From Methanoculleus frigidifontis (GTDB taxonomy: Archaea > Halobacteriota > Methanomicrobia > Methanomicrobiales > Methanoculleaceae), in assembly GCF_030464345.1 (NCBI RefSeq), contig NZ_VCYH01000011.1, forward strand, positions 1-64,000: DNA of 64,000 nucleotides, written 5' to 3'. Below are positions 3,077 to 17,693 of the stretch, in pieces; positions within the stretch are counted from its first letter, which is position 1, and each line of letters begins with the position of its first letter. The translations under genes and the position numbers were made by a program. The notes below the pieces were generated by a model. That model ran no database searches. It saw nothing but the letters and a program-made list of their open reading frames with translations, and was not told the origin of the DNA.

Positions 3077-4744
3077 TTGGAGCAGAGCACCAGAGTGATA
3101 CTCGTGATCGCTGCAGCACTCCTGATTCTTGGTCTGGTCATGGCGCCGTTCTTTGCGGGGCCGGCCGACGACGGCGATGATACCGATGCCGTGTTCGTGG
3201 CTGCGAGCGACAGCAGTGCAGCAGCGAAAGCCCAGGCCCGGTATGTCTGTGACGGGGTCGACGATCACGTGGAGATCCGGCAGGCGCTCGCGGCCCTCTC
3301 CGGGAGCGGCGGAACCGTCCGGCTTGCGAAAGGGACCTACACCTGTGCCGGGAACCTCGAACCGGGAGCGAATACCGTGCTCGAAGGAGCAGGGCCGGAG
3401 GAGACGACGCTCGAGTTCCCGAAAACCGGCGGCCTGCGAGCGTACAGGCCCTCGGTCACGTTCAAAGGTTTCACCGTCACGGGCGTTGCCGACCTGCTCA
3501 TCACCGAGAGCCATGCCCGCGTCACCGACGTGACGATGACGGTGGACAACTCGCGGGTCGGGGCCTTCTACGTCTGGGCGGCGAACACGGTCATCGAGGA
3601 TATCGTCTTTGAGAACTGCAGGGCAATCGACTGCGGCCGCTACGGGTTCCTGAACAGCGGCGAGGGTTCGCCGCGGCTGGTGAAGGACATCAAGTACGTG
3701 GGCTGCGCAGCGATCAACTGCGGCAGGGACAGTTACGTCTCTACGGGTCCGTGGGTGACGGGTTTTGATATCGTCGAGAAGAACGATATCGACGGTGCCG
3801 AGGTGATCGGCTGCTATGCCGAGGGCAACCAGGAGAGCGGGTTCCACCTGGAGGGCTTCTCGTACTTAAGCATCAAGAACGTCCGGTTCCAGGACTGCGT
3901 CAGCGTGAACAACGCCCAGAAGGGCAAAGATGAGGCCACGTTCGGTGGCGGGTATACCGTCTCGAAGGGGGTCACTTTCGAGAACTGCACCTCGGAGAAC
4001 AACAAGCATGGGTTCCTGATCAACGGCGGCTCCAGTGTGCGGGGCCACGACGTGTCGTATCTCCGGTGCACCGACACCGGTTCCGACTACGGGTTCACCG
4101 TCGATCACGGATCGGGTTTTGTTCTTGAGGACTGTGAGGCGCTCGGGTCGAAGCTCCGCTCCCTGACCATCGACCGGTCGCATGACATTCTGGTAGAGGC
4201 GTTTACCAGTAGACCGGCGGCGGACGGAGCCGGAACTGCACCCGCCGGCAGCGGTGCCGACGACCGGCACGAGGTGCTGATCCAGGACTCGTTCGGTGTC
4301 GTCCTGAGCGGGGATATCACAACGTCCCGGCCGCACGGTCTGAGTGTCGCCGGAACCGAGGCCCGAAACATCACGGTTCAGGACACGTGCATCCTCTCCG
4401 ACGGATCGCGGGGCAGCATCTTTGGTGTGTACGTAAGCGGTGATGTCGCCGATGCCGGCACCATCCTGGTCAGGAACAGCAAAATCGCCGCCCTGGCGGA
4501 AAATTCGCCTCTGAAGGCAGGGATAGAAAACCTGGCTTCACAAGCGGTGCTTGTGGAGAATGTCCTGGTGACCGGGGCGGGAGAGCCGTTCGTCAACTGC
4601 GATGTTCTGGCCGAGGCAGAGGTTCCGTCGCCGACGCCGACCCGGCAGCCCGGACCTGACACACTCGTGGCAATGATCGGTCTTGGCGTGGCAGTCATCG
4701 GTCTTGCCGTGGCAATCTTCCTCCTCTGGCGGCGGAGGAGATAA
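3077..4744 (+). CDS. Secreted right-handed beta-helix protein, paralogue 1, C-terminally anchored
   Basis: About 555 residues. TTG 3077 is chosen because GGAGTGA ends four bases upstream and the next residues form a signal/anchor helix (RVILVIAAALLILGLVMAPF). The mature part begins with an AASDSSAAAKAQARYVCDG segment, then short Gly/Asn/Cys-rich PbH1-type coils (for example DNSRVGAFYVWAAN and CGRYGFLNSGEG). This fold is shared with pectate lyases, alginate epimerases and NosD. A Pro/Thr linker leads to a second transmembrane helix and a terminal RRRR, so this copy is probably membrane-anchored facing outwards. The three genes downstream are its paralogues; its C-terminal third differs from theirs. 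No catalytic residues can be assigned. An adhesive, matrix or polysaccharide-modifying role is inference. Confidence 0.8.
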   Translation: MEQSTRVILVIAAALLILGLVMAPFFAGPADDGDDTDAVFVAASDSSAAAKAQARYVCDGVDDHVEIRQALAALSGSGGTVRLAKGTYTCAGNLEPGANTVLEGAGPEETTLEFPKTGGLRAYRPSVTFKGFTVTGVADLLITESHARVTDVTMTVDNSRVGAFYVWAANTVIEDIVFENCRAIDCGRYGFLNSGEGSPRLVKDIKYVGCAAINCGRDSYVSTGPWVTGFDIVEKNDIDGAEVIGCYAEGNQESGFHLEGFSYLSIKNVRFQDCVSVNNAQKGKDEATFGGGYTVSKGVTFENCTSENNKHGFLINGGSSVRGHDVSYLRCTDTGSDYGFTVDHGSGFVLEDCEALGSKLRSLTIDRSHDILVEAFTSRPAADGAGTAPAGSGADDRHEVLIQDSFGVVLSGDITTSRPHGLSVAGTEARNITVQDTCILSDGSRGSIFGVYVSGDVADAGTILVRNSKIAALAENSPLKAGIENLASQAVLVENVLVTGAGEPFVNCDVLAEAEVPSPTPTRQPGPDTLVAMIGLGVAVIGLAVAIFLLWRRRR

Positions 4745-5172
4745 CCCACCGTCCTTTTTTTGGGAGATCCGATCCTGCTGCAGTGATCTCTCCGGGGTCT
4801 TCCGGGTGCGGGACGGCGAACCCTAACCTCCGGTGCCAATACCTCTTCACTGGAGCGTCTGTCCGCAGGATAGGTGCGGCGCACGTGGTTGCAGCCCGGA
4901 TACGGTGCTCTGCGTGTGTATCATAGAGGATCATGCCGCACAGCGGAAGGCGATTGGCGCGAATATTTAATGAGTTCGGTTTTAATCACCGAGGTGGTAC
5001 ATAAACCTTGTGCAAAAAAATATCGCTAATATAATAATGCAAAAATAAAAATCGGTTTGTGAGGATTACTACATTTAGATATTAAGGATTTTTATAAAAC
5101 TTTTTTTATGGGCAAAATACTTATATCACTGTTCAGAGATGCAGATCTACCTCCATGTGAGGAGTGAACAGC
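4745..5172. other. AT-rich spacer with promoter of beta-helix paralogue 2
   Basis: A T7 run at about 4755-4761 may terminate the upstream gene. From about 4960 the sequence becomes strikingly AT-rich, unlike the GC-rich surroundings. The best TATA-like box is TACTTATAT at 5118-5126, about 47-55 bases before the ATG. No coding frame is supported on either strand. Confidence 0.55.
5118..5167 (+). promoter_or_regulatory. TATA-like box and ribosome site of beta-helix paralogue 2
   Basis: TACTTATAT (5118-5126) is followed by a GAGGAGTGA ribosome site at 5159-5167, five bases before ATG 5173. The same TACTTATA box precedes paralogue 4 at 9327-9334, which hints at shared expression. This is read by eye, without transcript data. 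Confidence 0.5.
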
Positions 5173-6603
5173 ATGACAGAGTCGCGAAACGTGAAACGAT
5201 TGGTTGCAGTGCTCCTGGTGTTCTGCCTGATCCCGGTGTTTGTACCGGCAGGGGCGGCAGCAGAGTCCACCACGCTCGTCGTGGCTGCAAGTGACAGCAG
5301 TGAAGAAGCGAAAGCTCAGGCTACCTATATCTGCGATGGTTCAGACGATCACGTGGAGATCCAGCAGGCTCTCGACGCCCTGCCTGCTGGTGGGATTGCC
5401 CTTCTGATGGAGGGTACGTACAACTGTGCCGGCAACATCCAGCCCGGTGACTCCAGAATCCTGCAGGGTTCCGATGAGAACACGACGGTCTTGAGTTACC
5501 CCGGCTCCGGCGGGCTCCGGGTCCGTGCACCGTCCGTGACCTTTGCCGACTTCACGGTCACCGGAAAAGCCGACATGATCATTGAGGACGATCATACCCG
5601 GGTTCGCAACGTGACGATGACGGTTGACAACTCGCGGATCGCCGCCTTCTACGTCTGGGCAGCGAACGACGTCGTCGAGGACACCGTCTTCGAGAACTGC
5701 AGGGCGATCGACTGCGGCCGCTACGGGTTCCTGAACAGCGGCGAGGGTTCGCCGCGGCTGGTGAAGGACATCGCGTACATCAACTGCACGGCGATCAACT
5801 GCGGCAAGGACAGTTACGTCTCTACGGGTCCGTGGGTGACCGGGTTTGATATCGTCGAGAAGAACGATATCGACGGCGCCGAGGTGATCGGCTGCTACGC
5901 CGAGGGCAACCAGGAGAGCGGGTTCCACCTGGAGGGCTTCTCGTACTTAAACATCCAGAACGTCCGGTTCCAGGACTGCATCAGCGTGAACAACGCCCAG
6001 AAGGGCAAGGATGCGTGCATGTTCGGCGCCGGGTTCACCGTCCCGAAGGGAGTGACCCTCGAGAACTGTACGTCCGTGAACAACAAGCACGGCTACCTGG
6101 TCAGCGGCGGCAGCGTCAGCAAGGGGTTTTCCAACACCTTCACGAACTGCACCGATGAAGGATCCGACTATGGGTTTACCATCCGCCACGGCTACGACAT
6201 CACCATGACCGACTGTGTCTCGAAGGATGCCGCCCGCCAGGGTCTCGTCCTCTCGAAGGCCTGGAACATCAAGGCAGAGGACTTCCGCCTGATCGGCGCT
6301 GCAGGCTATCCGCTCCATGAAGGCTCCTCGGAGCAGACTGCGGTGAAGATCGCCGGAACACGGTCGTCCGACGACCAGTTCGCCTACAACATGTGGGACG
6401 GGGCGGTCACCGACAGCACCCTCGATATCCATGCCGAGGGCTGCGGAACCGACACCGTCGTCTTCCTTGAGGACGCCCAGCGGGTCACCCTCACGGGGAG
6501 TACGGACTCTGCGGGTGCAAACCCGGTGAAGGTCGCCGGTGGAACCGCAGTCGACACTGCAGGCTTCACCACTGGTGCCGAAGTGTCCGCTCCCTCCGCA
6601 TAA
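5173..6603 (+). CDS. Secreted right-handed beta-helix protein, paralogue 2
   Basis: About 476 residues. ATG 5173 is preferred over the in-frame GTG at 5164 because the GAGGAGTGA site would overlap the GTG. The N-terminus is a signal peptide: basic NVKRL, then a hydrophobic core ending in AGAAAES. The exported part starts with VVAASDSSEEAKAQATYICDG and continues as short beta-helix coils. Its centre is almost identical to paralogue 1, including residue runs around STGPWVTGFDIVEKNDIDGA and EGNQESGFHLEGFSYL. It ends without a linker or membrane anchor, so it is probably released or held through partners. No enzymatic motif can be named. A T7 run follows the stop at about 6631-6637. Confidence 0.8.
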   Translation: MTESRNVKRLVAVLLVFCLIPVFVPAGAAAESTTLVVAASDSSEEAKAQATYICDGSDDHVEIQQALDALPAGGIALLMEGTYNCAGNIQPGDSRILQGSDENTTVLSYPGSGGLRVRAPSVTFADFTVTGKADMIIEDDHTRVRNVTMTVDNSRIAAFYVWAANDVVEDTVFENCRAIDCGRYGFLNSGEGSPRLVKDIAYINCTAINCGKDSYVSTGPWVTGFDIVEKNDIDGAEVIGCYAEGNQESGFHLEGFSYLNIQNVRFQDCISVNNAQKGKDACMFGAGFTVPKGVTLENCTSVNNKHGYLVSGGSVSKGFSNTFTNCTDEGSDYGFTIRHGYDITMTDCVSKDAARQGLVLSKAWNIKAEDFRLIGAAGYPLHEGSSEQTAVKIAGTRSSDDQFAYNMWDGAVTDSTLDIHAEGCGTDTVVFLEDAQRVTLTGSTDSAGANPVKVAGGTAVDTAGFTTGAEVSAPSA

Positions 6604-7359
6604 GGGACGCCCGAAAGGCTCCCCTATCCTTTTTTTGTATACCGTAAATCCCGTGCAGGGTGATTTCCGGCGATGCCGGGTTGTGCTCCGGAAGGGAAGA
6701 GAGATCCATTTCGGACGTCCTGATCGGGAGCACGTCCCAAAAAGTGCCTGGGGATCGAAGATCCGCCCGGGCCGCAGCACCCTTTCCGGATCTACCTGCT
6801 GAGAAGAGCGGCATCGGATGGCATGCCTGCGAACACGGTCGCCCCTGGGCTATATTGCATTGGGGAGTCCGGGAGGGGATCTCTTCCTCCTGCCGGAGAG
6901 TGTTGCGAAGTGCCACCCTTTCGGAGACTCCGACCGAATTGACGTTCATGCTTTTGGGGATCCTGGGGATCCGTGAGGGACATCTGCATGGAGGTACAGT
7001 CAGGGGAGGTGGCATCCCCCTCCTCCTGACGCGGTTGCCCTTGCGGTTTCCCGGATCGGGGACGGCCACGGAGGCACAAAACCTGCCGGTCACCTGCACG
7101 AAGCGTGTCGGGTGTTTCTCAACGGTACGCCACGATACCGCTCCACTGTCGATAGCGGATCGTTTTTCTGTTATCCGGAGTATGCCCTATTTAAACCCAT
7201 CGTCCGGGCAGTCCTTCCTTGAAGCTCCCCTTTTCCTGGGGAAATATATCTCCAATCTCTGATTTGTCTTCAATGCAATAATATCTCCTCGTTAATTTTA
7301 AACAGATATTTATAATATTATTATTATATGAAGGAAGGTCACCCTTCGGAGGTGAAATC
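6604..7359. other. Long intergenic region between beta-helix paralogues 2 and 3
   Basis: About 750 bases, the longest gap in the array. Two overlapping open frames of up to 200 codons, one per strand, show no recognisable domain and no upstream ribosome site, so I treat them as chance. A hairpin candidate pairs GTCAGGGGAGG (6999-7009) with the complementary run ending at 7030, with a small bulge. From about 7260 the sequence turns AT-rich, with TATA-like motifs at about 7308-7325, and this part serves as the promoter of paralogue 3. Confidence 0.5.
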
Positions 7360-7362
7360 CTG
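7348..7362 (+). promoter_or_regulatory. Strong ribosome site that points to a CTG start
   Basis: GGAGGTGA (7348-7355) is the best ribosome site before paralogue 3. The only codon at normal spacing in the correct frame is CTG 7360, after a four-base gap. The first in-frame GTG (7387) and ATG (7396) are 31 and 40 bases away. A small frame, ATG 7328 to TGA 7361-7363 (MKEGHPSEVKS), overlaps the CTG and could couple translation. Confidence 0.5.
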
Positions 7363-8925
7363 AAATACAGACGAACCATACAACACGTGATAAGCATGGG
7401 TCTGATGCTGTGCATGGTAGCGGCCACGATGCCGGCCGGTGCAGCTGCAGAACCGGATGCCACGCCTATCGAAGACCTTCGCCTGACCGATGAACAGGTC
7501 TGGGAGCATGTGAACAACCTGCGTACCGACAGCTCCGGATGGGCCGCCGCGGAGGCGGGTACCATGACGCTTGTCGTGGCCGCATACGATGCCGATGACG
7601 CTGCAAAGGCTCAGGCAGAGTACGTCTGTGATGGAGTCAACGACCACGCGGAGATCCAGGCCGCTCTCAAGGCGCTGCCTGCCGGCGGAACCGTCCTTCT
7701 GACGCCGGGCACGTTCAACGTCGCCGGCAACCTGCAGCCCGGTGCGTACACCACGCTGAAGGGCTCGGGTGACGACGCCACGACCCTGAAGTTTGCGGGC
7801 GTTGGCGGGCCGCGGGTCCGGTCGCCGTACGTGACCTTCGCCGACTTCACGATCGTCGGCACCGCGGATCTGCTCGTTGCCGAAGATCATGCCCGCGTCC
7901 ACAATGTGACCATGACCGTCGACAACTCCCGGGTCGGCGCCTTCTACGTCTGGGCGGCCAACAAGGTCGTCGAAGACGTTGAGTTCGTGAACTGCAGGGC
8001 GATCGACTGCGGCCGCTACGGCTTTTTGAACAGCGGCGAGGGCGATCCGAACCTGATCACGAACGTCCGGTACGTGAACTGCGAGGCGATCAACTGCGGC
8101 AGGGACAGTTACGTCTCCACGGGGCCGTGGGTGACCGGGTTTGATATCGTCGAGAAGAACAACATCGACGGTGCCTGGATCATCGGCTGCTATGCCGAGG
8201 GCAACCAGGAGAGCGGGTTCCACCTGGAGGGCTTCTCGTACTTAAGCATCAAGAACGTGTTCTTCAAGGACTGCGTCAGCATCAACAATGCCGCGAAAGG
8301 CAAGGACAAGTGCATGTTCGGTGCCGGGTTCACGACCCCCAAGGGCTGCACCCTCGAGAACTGCTACTCGTACAACAACAAGCACGGGTTCCTCGTCAGC
8401 GGCGGGAGTATCAGCAAGTGCTATGATATCACCATGAAGAACTGCACCGACGATGCCTCCTGGTACGGGTTTATGTTCCGCCATGGTTATGACAGTACGT
8501 TCGTCGACTGCGTCTCGAACGATGCCGAGCGCCAGGGGATCGTCCTCTCCAAGGCCTGGAACCTGAACGTGGACAACTTCACCCTGAACGGTGCTGCAGG
8601 CTACCCGCTTCATGCCGGTTCCCCGACCGTCACGGCGGCCAAGTTTGCCGGAACCAAGACCGCTGACGATCCCTTCGCCGGCGGGATGTGGCACGGCCCG
8701 GTCACCGACAGCGTGATCGACATCAACGCCCAGAACTGCGGCTCGGAGACCGTTCTCTGCCTGGAGAATGCGCAACGGGTCACTGTCACCGGGACGATCG
8801 ATTCGAGCAGTCCTGATGCGGTGAAGGTCATCGGCGGGTCGGACGTCGACACAAGCGGTGTCGCCACCCTGAACGGGGCTGCTGAACCGCAGCCGACCCC
8901 GATCGTCATTCCGCTGATCGACTGA
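7360..8925 (+). CDS. Secreted right-handed beta-helix protein, paralogue 3
   Basis: About 521 residues from CTG 7360. That start gives a normal signal peptide: basic KYRR, a hydrophobic core, and AGAAAE at the cleavage region. Starting at GTG 7387 would remove the basic part. After the signal comes IEDLRLTDEQVWEHVNNLR, a short helical segment also present in paralogue 4 but absent from 1 and 2. The DADDAAKAQAEYVCDGVNDH entry motif and the beta-helix coils follow. The centre keeps the block conserved across the array; the C-terminus (WNLNVDNFTLNGAAGYPLHAG onwards) is closest to paralogues 2 and 4. There is no anchor. Role unknown: a surface or matrix component, or a polysaccharide-active enzyme. 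Confidence 0.8.
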   Translation: MKYRRTIQHVISMGLMLCMVAATMPAGAAAEPDATPIEDLRLTDEQVWEHVNNLRTDSSGWAAAEAGTMTLVVAAYDADDAAKAQAEYVCDGVNDHAEIQAALKALPAGGTVLLTPGTFNVAGNLQPGAYTTLKGSGDDATTLKFAGVGGPRVRSPYVTFADFTIVGTADLLVAEDHARVHNVTMTVDNSRVGAFYVWAANKVVEDVEFVNCRAIDCGRYGFLNSGEGDPNLITNVRYVNCEAINCGRDSYVSTGPWVTGFDIVEKNNIDGAWIIGCYAEGNQESGFHLEGFSYLSIKNVFFKDCVSINNAAKGKDKCMFGAGFTTPKGCTLENCYSYNNKHGFLVSGGSISKCYDITMKNCTDDASWYGFMFRHGYDSTFVDCVSNDAERQGIVLSKAWNLNVDNFTLNGAAGYPLHAGSPTVTAAKFAGTKTADDPFAGGMWHGPVTDSVIDINAQNCGSETVLCLENAQRVTVTGTIDSSSPDAVKVIGGSDVDTSGVATLNGAAEPQPTPIVIPLID

Positions 8926-9379
8926 CCGTGCATGGCGCAGAAAAACCTTCACATTTCTTTTATTCTTTTCGCGAGACCAGCTATTCTCCGGTCTTTGCAC
9001 CCGTCCGGCTTTCGCGCCGGTGCGGCACGTCCCGGATCTTCTGCTTCTGCCGCCCCCGGTGATGCGTGGGGTTTGCCGGTCCCGGGACGATCCGGCGATC
9101 GGGTTATCGCCTCGCAGAGTGCCTGAAATTTCTGTCGGGTTGGAGAGATCCCTGGAAATCATCGGGGTGAGGCCGCGGTGATGCGGTGCAGTTCACTCTA
9201 TTTCATATATAAATAACTATCGTATTTACCTCTGTTTCTGATCTTGCCCGGTTGGTTAAACTGACGATAATTATCGCCTCTTTAGAAAATATGTTCTTTT
9301 ATAAAAATCCGTTATATTTGAGAAACTACTTATAGGATTCTCATCAGATAATGCATTATCTCCAGAAAGGAGGTGAGTA
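8926..9379. other. Spacer with promoter of beta-helix paralogue 4
   Basis: A T-rich stretch after the stop (about 8952-8968) may be a terminator. The middle part is GC-rich without a supported gene. From about 9200 it is AT-rich and ends in the box TACTTATA (9327-9334) and the ribosome site AAGGAGGTGA (9366-9375), three bases before ATG 9380. Confidence 0.55.
9327..9375 (+). promoter_or_regulatory. TATA-like box and ribosome site of beta-helix paralogue 4
   Basis: TACTTATA (9327-9334) matches the box before paralogue 2, and AAGGAGGTGA (9366-9375) lies three bases before ATG 9380. Read by eye. Confidence 0.5.
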
Positions 9380-12325
9380 ATGGGAGATCTGTTTACAGTA
9401 AAACGAGTGATTTCAGTAATCCTGATGCTATGCTTTGTATCGGTATGTATACCGAGCAGCACCGCAGCGGTGTCATCAACGACTGTTCAGGACCTTCGCC
9501 TTACCGAGGCCGAAGTTCAGGCAACCGTGATGGAGCTGCGGACCGCCACCGGTTCAAACTGGGCCGAGTCCGGCGGGAGCACCGCAACAGTGATCGTAGC
9601 AGCAAGTGACAGCAGTGCAGCAGCAAAAGCCCAAGCCCGGTATGTCTGCGACGGTTCGAATGACCACGTAGAGATCCAGGCAGCTCTCAGTGCTCTCCCT
9701 GCCAGCGGTGGAACGGTTCTCCTGAAAGCGGGAACCTACAACTGCGCCGGCAACCTGCAGCCCGGTGCGTACAAGACGCTGAAAGGTGAGGGAGAAGGGG
9801 CGACCGTTCTGAAGTTCCCCGGCGTTGGCGGACTGCGCATCCGTGCACAGTACGTAACCTTCGCCGACTTCAAGGTCACCGGAAAAGCCGACATGCTCAT
9901 CGAAAGCAATCACGCCCGTGTTCGCAACGTGACCATGACGGTGGACAACTCCCGGATCGGCGTCTTCTACGTCTGGGCGGCCAACAAGGTTGTCGAGGAC
10001 GTTGAGTTCGTGAACTGCAAGGCTATCGACTGCGGCCGCTACGGGTTTTTGAACAGTGGCGAGGGAAACCCGAACCTGATCAAGAACGTCCGGTACATCA
10101 ACTGTGAGGCCATCAACTGTGGACGCTACAGCTCCGTCTCCACGGGGCCGTGGGTGACCGGGTTTGACATCGTCGAGAAGAACAACATCGACGGTGCCTG
10201 GATCGTCGGCTGCTATGCAGAAGGCAACCAGGAGAGCGGGTTCCACCTCGAGGGCTTCTCGTACCTGAGCATCAAGAACGTCCACTTCAAGGACTGCGTC
10301 AGCATCAACAACGCCCAGAAGGGCAAGGACAGATGCATGTTCGGCGCCGGGTTCACCGTCCCGAAGGGCTGCACGCTTGAGAACTGCTACTCGTACAACA
10401 ACAAGCACGGGTATCTGGTCAGCGGCGGCAGCGTCAGCAAGTGCTATGATGATACCTTCATCAATTGCCGGGACGATGCCTCGTGGTACGGGTTTGTAGT
10501 CCGGCACGGCTACGACATCTCCATGACCGGCTGTATCTCGAACGATGCCGCCCGGCAGGGGATCGTCCTCTCCAAGGCCTGGGACATCACGGTCAACGAC
10601 TTCTACCTGAACGGTGCCGCAGGCTACCCGCTCCATAGCGGTTCCTCGACCGTCACGGCAGCCAAGTTTGCAGCGACGACGTCGTCCGACGATCCGTTCG
10701 CCTACAGCATGTGGAAAGGGCCGCTGACCGACAGCAGCATCGATATCCACGCCCAGAACTGCAAGCCGTCGACCGTCCTCTGCTTTGAGAACGCCCAGCG
10801 CGTCAAGGTGACCGGTACGATCACAACGACCAGCACGAGCCCGATCCGGGTTATCGGCGGTTCCGCCGTCGACACGAGCGGTGTTGTCTTCGGCCCCGAC
10901 GTGGTTTCGCCGTCACCTGCCCCGACCCCGGCTCCGGTCGAGAACCCGGAGTACCTCTGGTACGAGGCTGAAGCGGTCGGCGTGACCGCACCGATGACGG
11001 CAGCCGCCGATGCGGCCGCATCCAACGGGAACTACATCTGGGTCCCGCAGGGAACCGGACACGCGGTAGAGCCCCCGGCGACCGAGGGCACCGCGACCTA
11101 CCCGATCAGCGTCTCTGAGGCGGGTACCTACGCCGTCTACGCCCGGTGCATCGCTCCGGACAGTGCGAGCGACTCGTTCTGGGTCTCCGTGGACGGAGCA
11201 GCAGGCTTCAAGTTCGCCCCGGTCACCAGTGAGGACTGGCAGTGGACGAAGGTCGGTACCTACTCCTTCGCCGCCGGTGAGCACACGCTCGACATGATGT
11301 GGCGCGAGGACGGCACGAAGCTCGACAAGATCTTCGTCACAAACGACCTCGCCTACCTGCCGACCGGCACGGGCGGCGAGGCGACCGGACCGGTCGTCAT
11401 ACCGACTCCGACGCCTACCCCGACGCCTACTCCGACGCCGACGCCCGCCAGTCCCCAGACCTGGATTGAGATGGAGTCTGCAGACCTCGTAAGCCCGATG
11501 GTCGCCGCATCGGATGCAGCAGCCTCCGGCGGCGCGTACGTCTGGACGCCCCAGGGCACCGGCAACCGGGCAACGCCCCCGGCCGACGGGGCGGCGACCG
11601 TGACGTTCACGGTTCCTGCCTCGGGCACCTATGCCATCTACGGCCGGACGATCGCTCCTGACAGCACGGCAGACTCGTTCTGGGTCTCCATCGACGGCGC
11701 TGCCGCATTCAAGTGGGAGCCCGGCAACAGTCAGGACTGGATCTGGAACAAAGTCGGGTCGTATCCCCTCTCCGCCGGCGAGCACACCCTGAAGGTGATG
11801 CTGCGTGAGGACGGAACCAGGATCGACAAGGTCGTTGTCAGCAGCGATCCCGCCTTCGTTCCTGAGGGCAGCGGCGACGGCACCCCGATCGTCGTCCCGG
11901 TTCAGCAGGATATCGTGATCGAGGCAGAGGGCGGAAGCCTGGCAGCCCCGATGCAGGCGCTCAATGACGTGGCTGCGTCCGGCGGGAAGTACATCGTTGT
12001 CCCGATGGGCAGCGGTGCACAGGCAACTCCTCCGGCGACGGGCACCGCGACCTACACCTTCGACGTGCCCGCAACCGGTGAGTACGCCCTGCACGGACGG
12101 ACAATCGCTCCGGACAGCACGACGGACTCGTTCTGGGTCTCGCTCGACGGTGCTGCCGCATTCAAGTGGGAGCCCGGCAACAGCAAGGCCTGGACCTGGA
12201 ACAAAGTGGGTCAGTACCCGCTTGCTGCAGGCAAGCACACGCTGAAAGTGATGTGGAGAGAAGACGGTACCAAACTGGACAAACTCCTCCTCACCGGCGA
12301 CCTTGCCGCTGTGCCGACGGCATAA
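9380..12325 (+). CDS. Secreted beta-helix protein, paralogue 4, with three C-terminal carbohydrate-binding-like repeats
   Basis: 981 residues. A signal peptide (about 1-30) is followed by VQDLRLTEAEVQATVMELR, as in paralogue 3, then the beta-helix region (about 70-510) carrying the shared central block. After a Pro-rich linker come three repeats of about 140 residues, near 524-663, 691-826 and 838-981. Each has an EAE/EME/EAEG start, a VPQGTG-like loop, an AGTYAVYARCIAPDS-type strand, a DSFWVS.DGAA segment and a final MWREDGTKLDK. This pattern resembles CBM6/CBM35-type sugar-binding modules. A (PT)n linker at about 672-690 separates repeats 1 and 2, encoded by a hexanucleotide-like repeat at 11401-11446. 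The array suggests tight binding to an extracellular glycan; the partner is not known. Confidence 0.8.
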   Translation: MGDLFTVKRVISVILMLCFVSVCIPSSTAAVSSTTVQDLRLTEAEVQATVMELRTATGSNWAESGGSTATVIVAASDSSAAAKAQARYVCDGSNDHVEIQAALSALPASGGTVLLKAGTYNCAGNLQPGAYKTLKGEGEGATVLKFPGVGGLRIRAQYVTFADFKVTGKADMLIESNHARVRNVTMTVDNSRIGVFYVWAANKVVEDVEFVNCKAIDCGRYGFLNSGEGNPNLIKNVRYINCEAINCGRYSSVSTGPWVTGFDIVEKNNIDGAWIVGCYAEGNQESGFHLEGFSYLSIKNVHFKDCVSINNAQKGKDRCMFGAGFTVPKGCTLENCYSYNNKHGYLVSGGSVSKCYDDTFINCRDDASWYGFVVRHGYDISMTGCISNDAARQGIVLSKAWDITVNDFYLNGAAGYPLHSGSSTVTAAKFAATTSSDDPFAYSMWKGPLTDSSIDIHAQNCKPSTVLCFENAQRVKVTGTITTTSTSPIRVIGGSAVDTSGVVFGPDVVSPSPAPTPAPVENPEYLWYEAEAVGVTAPMTAAADAAASNGNYIWVPQGTGHAVEPPATEGTATYPISVSEAGTYAVYARCIAPDSASDSFWVSVDGAAGFKFAPVTSEDWQWTKVGTYSFAAGEHTLDMMWREDGTKLDKIFVTNDLAYLPTGTGGEATGPVVIPTPTPTPTPTPTPTPASPQTWIEMESADLVSPMVAASDAAASGGAYVWTPQGTGNRATPPADGAATVTFTVPASGTYAIYGRTIAPDSTADSFWVSIDGAAAFKWEPGNSQDWIWNKVGSYPLSAGEHTLKVMLREDGTRIDKVVVSSDPAFVPEGSGDGTPIVVPVQQDIVIEAEGGSLAAPMQALNDVAASGGKYIVVPMGSGAQATPPATGTATYTFDVPATGEYALHGRTIAPDSTTDSFWVSLDGAAAFKWEPGNSKAWTWNKVGQYPLAAGKHTLKVMWREDGTKLDKLLLTGDLAAVPTA

Positions 12326-12469: not shown

Positions 12470-13720
12470 CTACAGCGTTCTGTAATAGAATCCGTCCTTT
12501 TCAGGAGCCTTCCCGGCAAAGATGCCCCGGATGTCGACCAGCACTTTGCTTGAGTTCATGAAACTCCCGATCTCTGCAAGGGACATATCCCTGAACTGGT
12601 CGTGTGCAACCGCGATAATGACGGCGTCCATCGGCACCGTGATCTCCTCAAGCGCCTGTACGCCGAAGGTCTCGATCGCGTTTGCAGGAAGCAGCGGGTC
12701 ATAGCCGTAGAGCTCGACGCCGAACTCGCTCAGGTGCCGGACGATCTCCGTAACCGGGCTTTCACGGGTGTCGGGCACGTTCTCCTTGTAGGTGAGTCCC
12801 ATGATCAGGACATTCGAGCCCTTGATAACCCTGCCCTGTTCGTTCAGCCCTTTGACGACCATGTCCGCCACGTGGCGCGGGATGTGATCGTTGATGGCTC
12901 TCCCGGCGAGGATGACCTGCGGGTGGTAGCCGAGCTCCTTCGCCCGGTAGACGAGGTAGTAGGGGTCGACCGGGATGCAGTGGCCGCCGACGAGCCCCGG
13001 GGTATACTGGTGGAAGTTCCACTTCGTGCCTGCAGCCTTCAGGACGGCGGCCGTGTCAATCCTCATCCGGTGAAAGATGATGGAGAGTTCGTTCATCAGG
13101 GCGATGTTCAGGTCACGCTGGATATTCTCGATAACTTTGGCGGCTTCGGCGGTTTTGATGTCGGGTGCGACGTACACGGTCGTTACGAGCCCGTAGAGGG
13201 CTGCAAGGTCTTCTGCCGTCGCTGCATCGTAGCCCGATACTATCTTGGTGATCCGATCCAGGGTATGGTCGCTGTCGCTCGGGTTGATCCGTTCCGGGGA
13301 ATACCCGATGGTAAAATCGACACCGCAGACACCGCCCGACTCACGCTCCAGGATCGGCCTGACGACGTCCTCGGTCACCCCCGGGTAGACGGTCGATTCG
13401 AGGACGACGCATGCGCCCGGCTTGAGGTTCTTTCCGACCGTCTCGGAGGCGGAGATGACGTAGCGCAGGTCCGGTTCCTTCGACCGGGTGACCGGCGTCG
13501 GGACACAGATCAGGACAAAATCCGCGTCGGCAATTCGGGCGGGATCGGAGGTTGCCTGCACGCTGTTCGCGTCCCTGGCCGCAATGGCGGATACCTTCCG
13601 TGCATCGATATCGAAACCGATCGTCGTCAGGTGCCGGGCGAAGCTGTCGGCAAGCGGAAGGCCGACATACCCAAGCCCGGCGATACAGACTGTTTTACTC
13701 TTTATCTGTTTGGAATCCAC
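12470..13720 (-). CDS. UDP-N-acetyl-D-mannosamine-type nucleotide-sugar dehydrogenase (WecC family)
   Basis: 416 residues. NAD-dependent, four-electron oxidation of a UDP-sugar to the uronic acid. The N-terminal Rossmann fingerprint GLGYVGLPLA holds Gly15, Gly17 and Gly20. The catalytic cysteine is in GGHCIPVDPYYL, about residue 248, and GLTYKENVPDTRESP marks the C-terminal nucleotide-sugar domain. Length and motifs fit UDP-ManNAc 6-dehydrogenase (WecC/WbpO) better than UDP-glucose dehydrogenase, but the exact sugar is inference. The product would feed surface glycan synthesis, in keeping with the flippase at 1213-2454 and the carbohydrate-binding modules of the adjacent secreted protein. It is transcribed towards the beta-helix array and shares its terminator region. 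Confidence 0.85.
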   Translation of the reverse strand: MDSKQIKSKTVCIAGLGYVGLPLADSFARHLTTIGFDIDARKVSAIAARDANSVQATSDPARIADADFVLICVPTPVTRSKEPDLRYVISASETVGKNLKPGACVVLESTVYPGVTEDVVRPILERESGGVCGVDFTIGYSPERINPSDSDHTLDRITKIVSGYDAATAEDLAALYGLVTTVYVAPDIKTAEAAKVIENIQRDLNIALMNELSIIFHRMRIDTAAVLKAAGTKWNFHQYTPGLVGGHCIPVDPYYLVYRAKELGYHPQVILAGRAINDHIPRHVADMVVKGLNEQGRVIKGSNVLIMGLTYKENVPDTRESPVTEIVRHLSEFGVELYGYDPLLPANAIETFGVQALEEITVPMDAVIIAVAHDQFRDMSLAEIGSFMNSSKVLVDIRGIFAGKAPEKDGFYYRTL

Positions 13721-15185: not shown

Positions 15186-16067
15186 ATGACCGCGATCCCG
15201 AAAGAAGAATATCTGCTAAAATGTACATCCGCCTGTGCAGGGTGCAGTTCTTCCCTCTGCCTGCGATATATTACAAAAGCGGCGGGGCCCGATACGGTTC
15301 TGGTGGTTCCCGCCTGCTGTACCAGTGTCATCCAGGGAATGTACCCGAACACGGCGATGGACATACCCGTGTACAACATCGCATTTGCGGCTGCAGCGGC
15401 CTGTGCATCCGGGCTGAGCAACGCATTCCGGGCGCTTCGGCGGGAGACCAACGTCATCGTCTACGCCGGTGACGGCGGCACGGTGGATATCGGTATCCAG
15501 GCTCTTTCCGGAGCGTTCGAGCGCGGCACCGATTTTCTCTATATCTGCTACGACAACGAGGCGTACGGTAACACCGGGATGCAGCGGTCCGGCGCAACGC
15601 CGCTCGGTGCGCGGACGACCACGACGCCCGGCGGAAAGCCGACGACGAAGAAAGACCTCGACCGGATCGTCGAGGCGCACGATCCGCCGTACATGGCGAC
15701 CGCCTGCAGTGCATATCCGCTCGACCTCTTCAAGAAAGTGAAGAAGGCGCTCTCGATCCGGGGGCCGAAGTTCATCCATATTCTTGCACCCTGCCCGCCC
15801 GGGTGGCGCTACTCGGCAGAAAAGACCATCGAGATGGGGAAACTGGCGGTCAAGACCGGCACATGGGTGCTCTACGAGCGTGAATACGGAAACCTCACGA
15901 TCAACGGCCCCTCAAAGGCCGCGATCAGAAAGCCGGCCCCGCTTGAGGACTATATCAAAGGGCAGGGCAGGTTCAAGGGTGTCACACCCGCGATGCTCGA
16001 ACAGATGCGTCAGCAGATGCAGGCGAACATCACCCGGCTTGTCCGCGAGGAGGAAGGCATATGCTGA
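15186..16067 (+). CDS. porB: Pyruvate:ferredoxin oxidoreductase, beta subunit
   Basis: 293 residues. Thiamine diphosphate-binding subunit of pyruvate synthase, which in methanogens makes pyruvate from acetyl-CoA, CO2 and reduced ferredoxin. The TPP fingerprint starts at GDGGTVDIG (about residue 95) and ends at CYDNEAYGNTG. Cysteines near the N-terminus (C13, C17, C20, C25) and one in a C-terminal SCPPGW-like segment (APCPPGWRY) would hold the 4Fe-4S cluster. Start ATG 15186 follows a good AAGGAGG site. The next gene overlaps by seven bases. This is the first gene of a compact porBACD operon. Confidence 0.93.
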   Translation: MTAIPKEEYLLKCTSACAGCSSSLCLRYITKAAGPDTVLVVPACCTSVIQGMYPNTAMDIPVYNIAFAAAAACASGLSNAFRALRRETNVIVYAGDGGTVDIGIQALSGAFERGTDFLYICYDNEAYGNTGMQRSGATPLGARTTTTPGGKPTTKKDLDRIVEAHDPPYMATACSAYPLDLFKKVKKALSIRGPKFIHILAPCPPGWRYSAEKTIEMGKLAVKTGTWVLYEREYGNLTINGPSKAAIRKPAPLEDYIKGQGRFKGVTPAMLEQMRQQMQANITRLVREEEGIC

Positions 16068-17173
16068 CGATTGCAACCGGAAACAAGGCTGTAGCAGCGG
16101 CGGTGAAGGCCGCGAAGCCCGGGGTCATCGCCGCCTACCCGATCACCCCGCAGACGGAGATTGTGGAGCAGATCGCCGAGTACGTCACTGCCGGCGCTCT
16201 TGCGAGCGAGTACATTCCGGTGGAGAGCGAGCACTCCGCGATGGCGGCCTGCATCGGCGCGAGCGCAGCGGGTGTCCGCACCTTCACGGCGACGAGCTCG
16301 CACGGCCTTCTTTACATGCACGAGATGGTGCACTGGGCGGCCGGAGCCCGCCTGCCGATCGTCATGGCGAACGTCAACCGTGCGCTCGGGCCCGGGTGGA
16401 ACGTCTGGGCGGAGCATACGGACGCCTTTTCCCAGCGGGATACCGGGTGGCTGCAGGTCTTCGTGAGCACCGTCCAGGAGGCCTACGACGCGACGCTGAT
16501 GGCGTTCCGGATTGCCGAGCACGAAAATGTCCTGCTCCCGGTCATGGTCAACCTCGACGGGTTCACCCTGAGCCACATCACCCAGTCGCTCGAGGCCTTC
16601 GATCCCGGGGACTTCATCCCGCCGGTGCGCATTCCCCACGCGATCGACGTGGAGAATCCCTGTGTCTACGGGCCGCTGACCGGGCCTGCCGACTACTTCA
16701 GGTTCCGCTGGGACATTGAGCGCTCCATGCGTGACTCCGTCGGCGTCATCGCCGACGTCGAGCGGGAGTTTGCAGAACGGTTCGGCCGGAGCTACGGCCC
16801 CACCGAGGACTACCGGTGCGAGGATGCGGAGGTCGTCGTCGTCGCCATGGGCACGCTCGGCAAAGAGGCCGAGGTCGCCGTCGACCTGCTGCGCCAGGAG
16901 GGCGTGGCTGCCGGTTCCATGCGCCTGCGCTGGTTCCGCCCCTTCCCGAAACTCGACCTCGCCGGACGCGACGTCGTCGTCATCGACCGTGACTACTCCT
17001 TCGGTTTCGGCGGTGTGGTCGCGCACTCCATCCGCTCGACGACCGGTGCCGAGCCGTACAGCGTGATCGCGGGTCTCGGCGGCCAGGAGGTAACGCATGA
17101 GGATATTGCCGGGTTCGTGAAGACGCGACAGTCCGGCAAGGAGTTCTGGTTCGGGGTGAACGACCGTGTATGA
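16061..17173 (+). CDS. porA: Pyruvate:ferredoxin oxidoreductase, alpha subunit
   Basis: 370 residues. It forms the active site with PorB. The family opening GNKAVAAAVKAAKPGVIAAY is followed by PITPQTEIVE, the YPITP motif that contacts the substrate and TPP. The C-terminal domain (about 250-370) has the transketolase-C-like VVVAMGTLGKEAEVAVDLL segment. It overlaps porB by seven bases and porC by eight, so translation is probably coupled. The enzyme is cytoplasmic and links acetyl-CoA from CO2 fixation or acetate assimilation to biosynthesis. The ferredoxin partner is not encoded here. Confidence 0.93.
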   Translation: MLTIATGNKAVAAAVKAAKPGVIAAYPITPQTEIVEQIAEYVTAGALASEYIPVESEHSAMAACIGASAAGVRTFTATSSHGLLYMHEMVHWAAGARLPIVMANVNRALGPGWNVWAEHTDAFSQRDTGWLQVFVSTVQEAYDATLMAFRIAEHENVLLPVMVNLDGFTLSHITQSLEAFDPGDFIPPVRIPHAIDVENPCVYGPLTGPADYFRFRWDIERSMRDSVGVIADVEREFAERFGRSYGPTEDYRCEDAEVVVVAMGTLGKEAEVAVDLLRQEGVAAGSMRLRWFRPFPKLDLAGRDVVVIDRDYSFGFGGVVAHSIRSTTGAEPYSVIAGLGGQEVTHEDIAGFVKTRQSGKEFWFGVNDRV

Positions 17174-17693
17174 GATACGCATCCATTCCCGCGGCGGGCA
17201 GGGAGGCGTCACGGCCGCACGGCTGCTGGCCCTTGCGGCGTTCCGCGACGGCAAGCATGCGACCGCCTGCCCCTTCTACGGTGCGGAGCGCCGGGGCGCA
17301 CCGGTCGTCTCCTTCGTCAGGATCGACGATCAGCCCATCCGGGTCTACTCCCAGATCCAGAAGCCCGATCTGGTGATCGTCCTCGACACCAGTATCATGG
17401 ACGTGGTCGACGTCTTCCAGGGTCTCAGAGAGGACGGCGCGGTGCTGCTGAACAGCTCGCACGATCTCGACGGGAGCGATCTTACCGCCTACCATGTCGA
17501 CCTGACCGGGATCGCCCTCGCCCTCGACCTGGTCGTGGCCGGGAGCCCGATCCTCAACACGCCGGTGCTCGGCGCCCTCGCGAAGCTGGGCATCGTCTCG
17601 CTCCCGTCGGTGAAGGAAGCGATCAGCGAGACGTTTGCGGACGAGCGGAACGTACAGGCTGCGGAAAAGGCATACCAGGAGATGACCGTATGA
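17166..17693 (+). CDS. porC: Pyruvate:ferredoxin oxidoreductase, gamma subunit
   Basis: 175 residues, starting at GTG 17166 inside the end of porA. The N-terminal HSRGGQGGVTAARLLA motif is typical of the gamma (POR/KOR gamma) domain, which is separate in archaea and fused in bacterial enzymes. The segment FYGAERRGAPVVSFVRI is also characteristic. It ends in an ATGA overlap with porD. Gene names vary between porC and porG for this subunit. Confidence 0.92.
   Translation: MYEIRIHSRGGQGGVTAARLLALAAFRDGKHATACPFYGAERRGAPVVSFVRIDDQPIRVYSQIQKPDLVIVLDTSIMDVVDVFQGLREDGAVLLNSSHDLDGSDLTAYHVDLTGIALALDLVVAGSPILNTPVLGALAKLGIVSLPSVKEAISETFADERNVQAAEKAYQEMTV

Follow-up and report, generated by a model that had tools for sequence, protein, structure and literature searches.

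The question raised by this locus is why four adjacent genes for secreted beta-helix proteins should be nearly constant in their centres and divergent at their ends. The window, meaning the whole stretch of 64,000 nt that was analyzed, carries all four on the forward strand. The gene g1 (3077-4744, 555 aa, with an uncertain TTG start) was annotated as encoding a secreted beta-helix protein that is anchored in the membrane at its C-terminus; g2 (5164-6603, 479 aa) and g3 (7387-8925, 512 aa) as bare secreted beta-helix proteins; and g4 (9380-12325, 981 aa) as a secreted beta-helix followed by three C-terminal carbohydrate-binding-like repeats. The Pfam family Beta_helix (PF13229) was matched above cut-off by all four proteins, and their matches to NosD (PF05048) stayed under the NosD cut-off. 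By genome-wide search these were the sole family members in the 3.17 Mb genome, and across a sample of 295 genomes from the phylum the family was nearly confined to Methanomicrobiales. The same gene quartet, flanked by the same two neighbours, was found in a sister species (G001). The window begins at a contig end, and the left context of the array is therefore cut.

The constant centre runs from the motif DNSR to HLEGFSYL and was placed by register and conversion tests at 3545-3862 in g1, 7921-8238 in g3 and 9944-10261 in g4, with the g2 copy at 5626-5943 (all forward strand); in-register 300-nt copies start at 3512, 5593, 7888 and 9911. Amino-acid identity among g1-g4 was 77-90% inside this block and 36-69% outside it, as the sequence-only reading of four tandem paralogues with a near-constant centre and divergent ends had described. 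Identity at silent sites was also elevated in the block. Where g1 and g2 have identical residues, the same codon was used at 103 of 111 positions in the block and at 66 of 132 outside it (p=5e-14).

In comparison with G001, orthologues were closer than paralogues across each gene, the central part excepted. In the g1/g2 quartet with this species, 0 sites in aligned codons 271-360 supported the orthologue grouping and 13 supported the paralogue grouping; outside these codons the counts were 173 and 16, respectively (Fisher, 7e-13). In IQ-TREE topology tests the orthologue tree was rejected for codons 271-360 (p-AU 0.0015). The tree of g1/g2 conversion was rejected for codons 121-210 and 361-480 (p-AU <1e-5); codons 211-240 favoured a g2/g4 exchange, and codons 241-270 gave no decision. 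Trees built from inside the block clustered paralogues by species. Topology and site patterns therefore indicate a mosaic of exchanges that took place after the species split, clearest in the lineage of the window. Within a bounded tract, paralogues of one genome are closer to each other than to their orthologues, silent sites included, and the block is homogenized by gene conversion. The earlier suggestion of gene conversion with divergent ends is thus borne out by topology tests, site counts and silent-site codon use, and by recurrence elsewhere.

Arrays outside the window genus show the same effect. Methanoculleus has its own three-gene array, in a clade separate from the eight genes of the window genus. 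At third codon positions orthologue identity in this array is flat along the gene, and paralogue identity climbs in the same block until it equals that of orthologues; a conversion effect between paralogues 1 and 2 was seen in 44 of 55 species pairs, and in one Methanoculleus genome (L044) there is a 184-nt exact tract. G043 belongs to a different family of the order and has a tandem pair that agrees at 729 of 730 nt over a tract reaching from the cap to slightly beyond the block, with ends 35-60% identical; assembly collapse may be an alternative source of this tract. Conversion of the same block is present in the separate arrays of Methanoculleus and of a third family. No excess conversion emerged when G044/G039, G049/G054, G059, the L079-L081 pairs and a second Methanoculleus array were searched for it, and because of these arrays conversion is described as recurrent, not universal. 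The locus is a clear case in nature of gene conversion restricted to a single region of a protein, with separate lineages converting that same region, and the forces setting the limits of conversion become testable. The second Methanoculleus array (L073, L074, L075), present in some genomes of the genus, consists of two beta-helix genes with their own adjacent flippase copy, 50% identical to that of the window.

Recent tandem duplication followed by uneven purifying selection, without gene conversion, would keep the centre constant as the catalytic part, and many of the invariant residues of the family do sit in the block. Identity between genera, however, is 41-54% for the block and 59-61% for the N-terminal cap, while g1-g4 share 77-90% in the block and 68-69% in the cap: the cap is the better conserved between genera yet the less conserved within the window. 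Constraint alone fails because the block does not exceed the cap in conservation between genera, and as the cause of the constant centre it was ruled out by this comparison together with codon choice and third positions. A history without conversion also leaves out of account that homogenization extends to third codon positions and to the codons chosen at identical residues, that paralogue identity in Methanoculleus peaks in the block while third-position identity between orthologues is flat, that block-internal trees put paralogues together by species, and that G043 contains the long identical tract; we regard it as very improbable.

Residues 28-479 of g2 were predicted to form a right-handed parallel beta-helix (pLDDT 94). 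Foldseek searches with this model gave the A-modules of AlgE6 and AlgE4 as top hits (E 2.6e-8), followed by PL6 lyases (E 1e-7), GH87, Pel9A and phage tailspikes or adhesins, with moderate TM-scores (0.2-0.6). AlgE likewise ranked first among solved relatives in a sequence profile search; the profile alignment to AlgE4, used for mapping catalytic residues, is trustworthy in the N-terminal cap only. Among 89 family members E205, E230 and N250 are invariant, H228 is conserved in 98% and K253 in 93% (E205, H228, E230 and K253 are numbered along window positions 5245-6603). E205, H228 and E230 fall inside the homogenized block, at 5857-5859, 5926-5928 and 5932-5934 in the g2 copy. H-x-E and K253 are conserved, and RHG is present in only 23 of the 89 members. 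PL6 lyases use a calcium-ligand E-x-E together with a catalytic Lys and Arg; this pattern was not seen in the sequences of the family. On the predicted structure, a lyase or epimerase function is plausible.

The epimerases of Azotobacter are clustered, secreted, modular beta-helix paralogues (PMC4444821), and this AlgE cluster is comparable enough with the array that the initial statement of no described system with this layout was too strong. Both have several clustered secreted paralogues, with a right-handed beta-helix as the catalytic module in AlgE, and both have C-terminal glycan-binding modules of variable number; by sequence profile and by fold, AlgE provides the nearest solved relatives of the array proteins. 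The two differ in that the DPHD motif described for AlgE/AlgG mannuronan C-5 epimerases (PMC4444821), or its DPHE form, is missing from all members of the array family (0/89). They differ also in their modules: where AlgE has calcium-binding R-modules, the array proteins have CBM-like repeats, CARDB plus dockerin, or membrane anchors, and no R-modules were detected by Pfam in g1-g4 or the relatives scanned. The array is, moreover, archaeal, has a flippase neighbour and undergoes block-limited gene conversion. Membership of the array family in AlgE/AlgG was rejected on the absence of the motif; the array resembles the AlgE family in layout and fold and does not belong to it. With PL6 (chondroitinase B, alginate lyases), whose substrates are uronate polymers, the array proteins share the beta-helix fold, but identity is ~10% and the array family conserves H-x-E, N and K instead. 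Beta_helix, NosD and Pect-lyase_RHGA_epim (PF12708) are fold-level Pfam families with no stated function, and a search of the literature on archaeal or Methanoculleus beta-helix arrays returned nothing relevant.

The ends differ as described, with a C-terminal membrane segment in g1, bare proteins from g2 and g3, and a repeat tail in g4. The membrane segment of g1 is accompanied by RRRR. Its G001 orthologue has a PGF-CTERM tag (27.4 bits, against a curated cut-off of 24.5), g1 of the window has a PGP variant below the PGF-CTERM cut-off, and archaeosortase A (ArtA) is present in both genomes. The g4 tail (10937-12322, forward strand) comprises three ~140-aa repeats with linkers between them, one proline/threonine-rich, and was matched to Golvesin_C / GH115_C and as CBM35/CBM6-like. 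The structure model of one tail repeat is of low confidence (pLDDT 55), and its CBM35/CBM6 matches, which for that reason are only supportive, include binders of glucuronic or unsaturated galacturonic acid. In the Methanoculleus array one protein is bare, one has an N-terminal membrane segment and one ends in two CARDB domains and a dockerin; in G044 and G039 one protein has a C-terminal membrane segment and one has CBM6 and CBM35. A similar layout of bare, anchored and long forms thus recurs across arrays. The dockerin that terminates the long Methanoculleus paralogue (L060:10965-13607 and relatives) is of type I. Cohesin domains were present in G011, G016, G017, G000 and G001 and not in others; a docking partner for the dockerin is inconsistent because cohesins occur in only some of them.

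A gene for a polysaccharide flippase (PF01943; 1213-2454, reverse strand) lies on one side of the array and is a conserved array neighbour in Methanoculleus. Homologues of this flippase numbered 15 in 18 genomes, 14 of them adjoining a beta-helix array, in accord with the functional link that the sequence-only reading had drawn. The lone homologue with no beta-helix neighbour is at G010:C1:2370023-2371225. In other genera, different flippases and glycosyltransferases were found near the arrays. On the other side is a nucleotide-sugar dehydrogenase (12470-13720, reverse strand), nearest to the TviB / UDP-ManNAc dehydrogenase types and a conserved neighbour only in the same genus. Its close orthologues in the relatives compared are sporadic and mostly not adjacent to arrays; the corresponding link to a UDP-sugar dehydrogenase therefore fails across relatives, and this gene is unsupported as a fixed partner of the array. 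If its class is read from sequence as of the TviB / UDP-ManNAc type, the enzyme would furnish an N-acetylated uronic acid.

The explanation that we prefer, and to which we give about an even chance, is that the four proteins are secreted versions of a single glycan-modifying activity, sent to different addresses, whose catalytic half is held uniform by gene conversion. A surface glycan, once flipped over the membrane, would most likely be modified by the secreted beta-helix proteins, probably at uronic-acid residues and through a reaction of the epimerase or lyase type. All copies would have one putative catalytic half in common and differ in address: g1 would be anchored at the surface, g2 and g3 would diffuse freely, and the repeats of g4 would hold the protein on the polymer. 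Recurrent conversion, confined to the central coils with invariant polar residues, would hold that half uniform and leave the ends to drift. We infer enzyme status because AlgE, PL6 and other glycan-active helices are the nearest relatives and because E205, E230, N250, H228 and K253 are invariant or nearly so. The hint of a uronate comes from the dehydrogenase type and the CBM35-like g4 tail (a low-confidence model), and the glycan context from the flippase beside the array in 14 of 15 cases and, in other genera, from glycosyltransferases and different flippases close to the arrays. The absent DPHD motif, the unseen PL6 pattern, the restriction of the reliable AlgE4 alignment to the N-terminal cap, the moderate TM-scores, the non-conserved dehydrogenase and the arrays with no excess conversion were counted against it. 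Computation establishes the predicted fold, the conversion and its bounds, the modular ends and the link to the flippase, while the activity, its substrate and the location of each copy are putative.

The proteins could instead be structural surface proteins or adhesins that bind glycan or each other within the cell coat with no catalysis, conversion preserving a surface that the copies use in common for binding or packing. Surface proteins with beta-helices are common, this genome encodes other large beta-helix proteins, and the CBM, CARDB or dockerin modules of the tailed forms are typical of surface architecture. Such a role sits poorly with the invariant and near-invariant residues, which resemble a groove for chemistry, and with nearest solved folds that are glycan epimerases, lyases and glycosidases, phage adhesins also being among the hits; we consider it unlikely, yet by some distance the stronger of the two functional alternatives. 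The other would make the proteins glycoside hydrolases or lyases working outside the cell to cleave polysaccharide that is foreign or shed, the cell's own glycan not being tailored, and draws on the fold matches to GH87, PL6 and Pel9A and on dockerin and CBM tails reminiscent of degradative systems. The host, however, is related to hydrogenotrophic methanogens, for which no polysaccharide use is known, and the genes adjoin a flippase and glycosyltransferases, as in biosynthesis loci; this alternative appears improbable. Returning to the copies of one glycan-modifying activity, a wider proposal can be made tentatively, and with rather more doubt than the preferred explanation itself: that they represent a new family of archaeal beta-helix enzymes which modify glycans at the polymer level and have catalytic residues of their own. 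They would be deployed as matched, differently addressed sets, and recurrent conversion restricted to the catalytic half would keep their chemistry uniform as the localization parts diversify, a process that would have taken place separately in at least three genera within a single order. The arrays point to an undescribed set of secreted proteins, putatively active in glycan modification, in Methanomicrobiales and among them in Methanoculleus, a biogas genus with poorly known surface polysaccharides.

Several further features were observed. Very large beta-helix proteins (frames of 2003, 2464 and 1015 aa) are encoded at G000:C12:7706-10795 and G000:C1:584940-591352 and were not matched by an array protein. 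The gap between g2 and g3 (6604-7386) is unusually long at 783 nt and contains a 200-aa open frame at 6660-7262. A truncated Na+/H+ exchanger lies at the contig end of the window, and the membrane protein encoded next to the flippase of G001 has its orthologue in the window genome on another contig (L078, G000:C14:43243-45207); together these mark either a rearrangement or an assembly gap. Three genes of a 2-oxoacid:ferredoxin oxidoreductase (TPP_enzyme_C, POR_N and POR) occupy 15186-17693 of the window, and at least the first two are similarly placed in G001, past the dehydrogenase.
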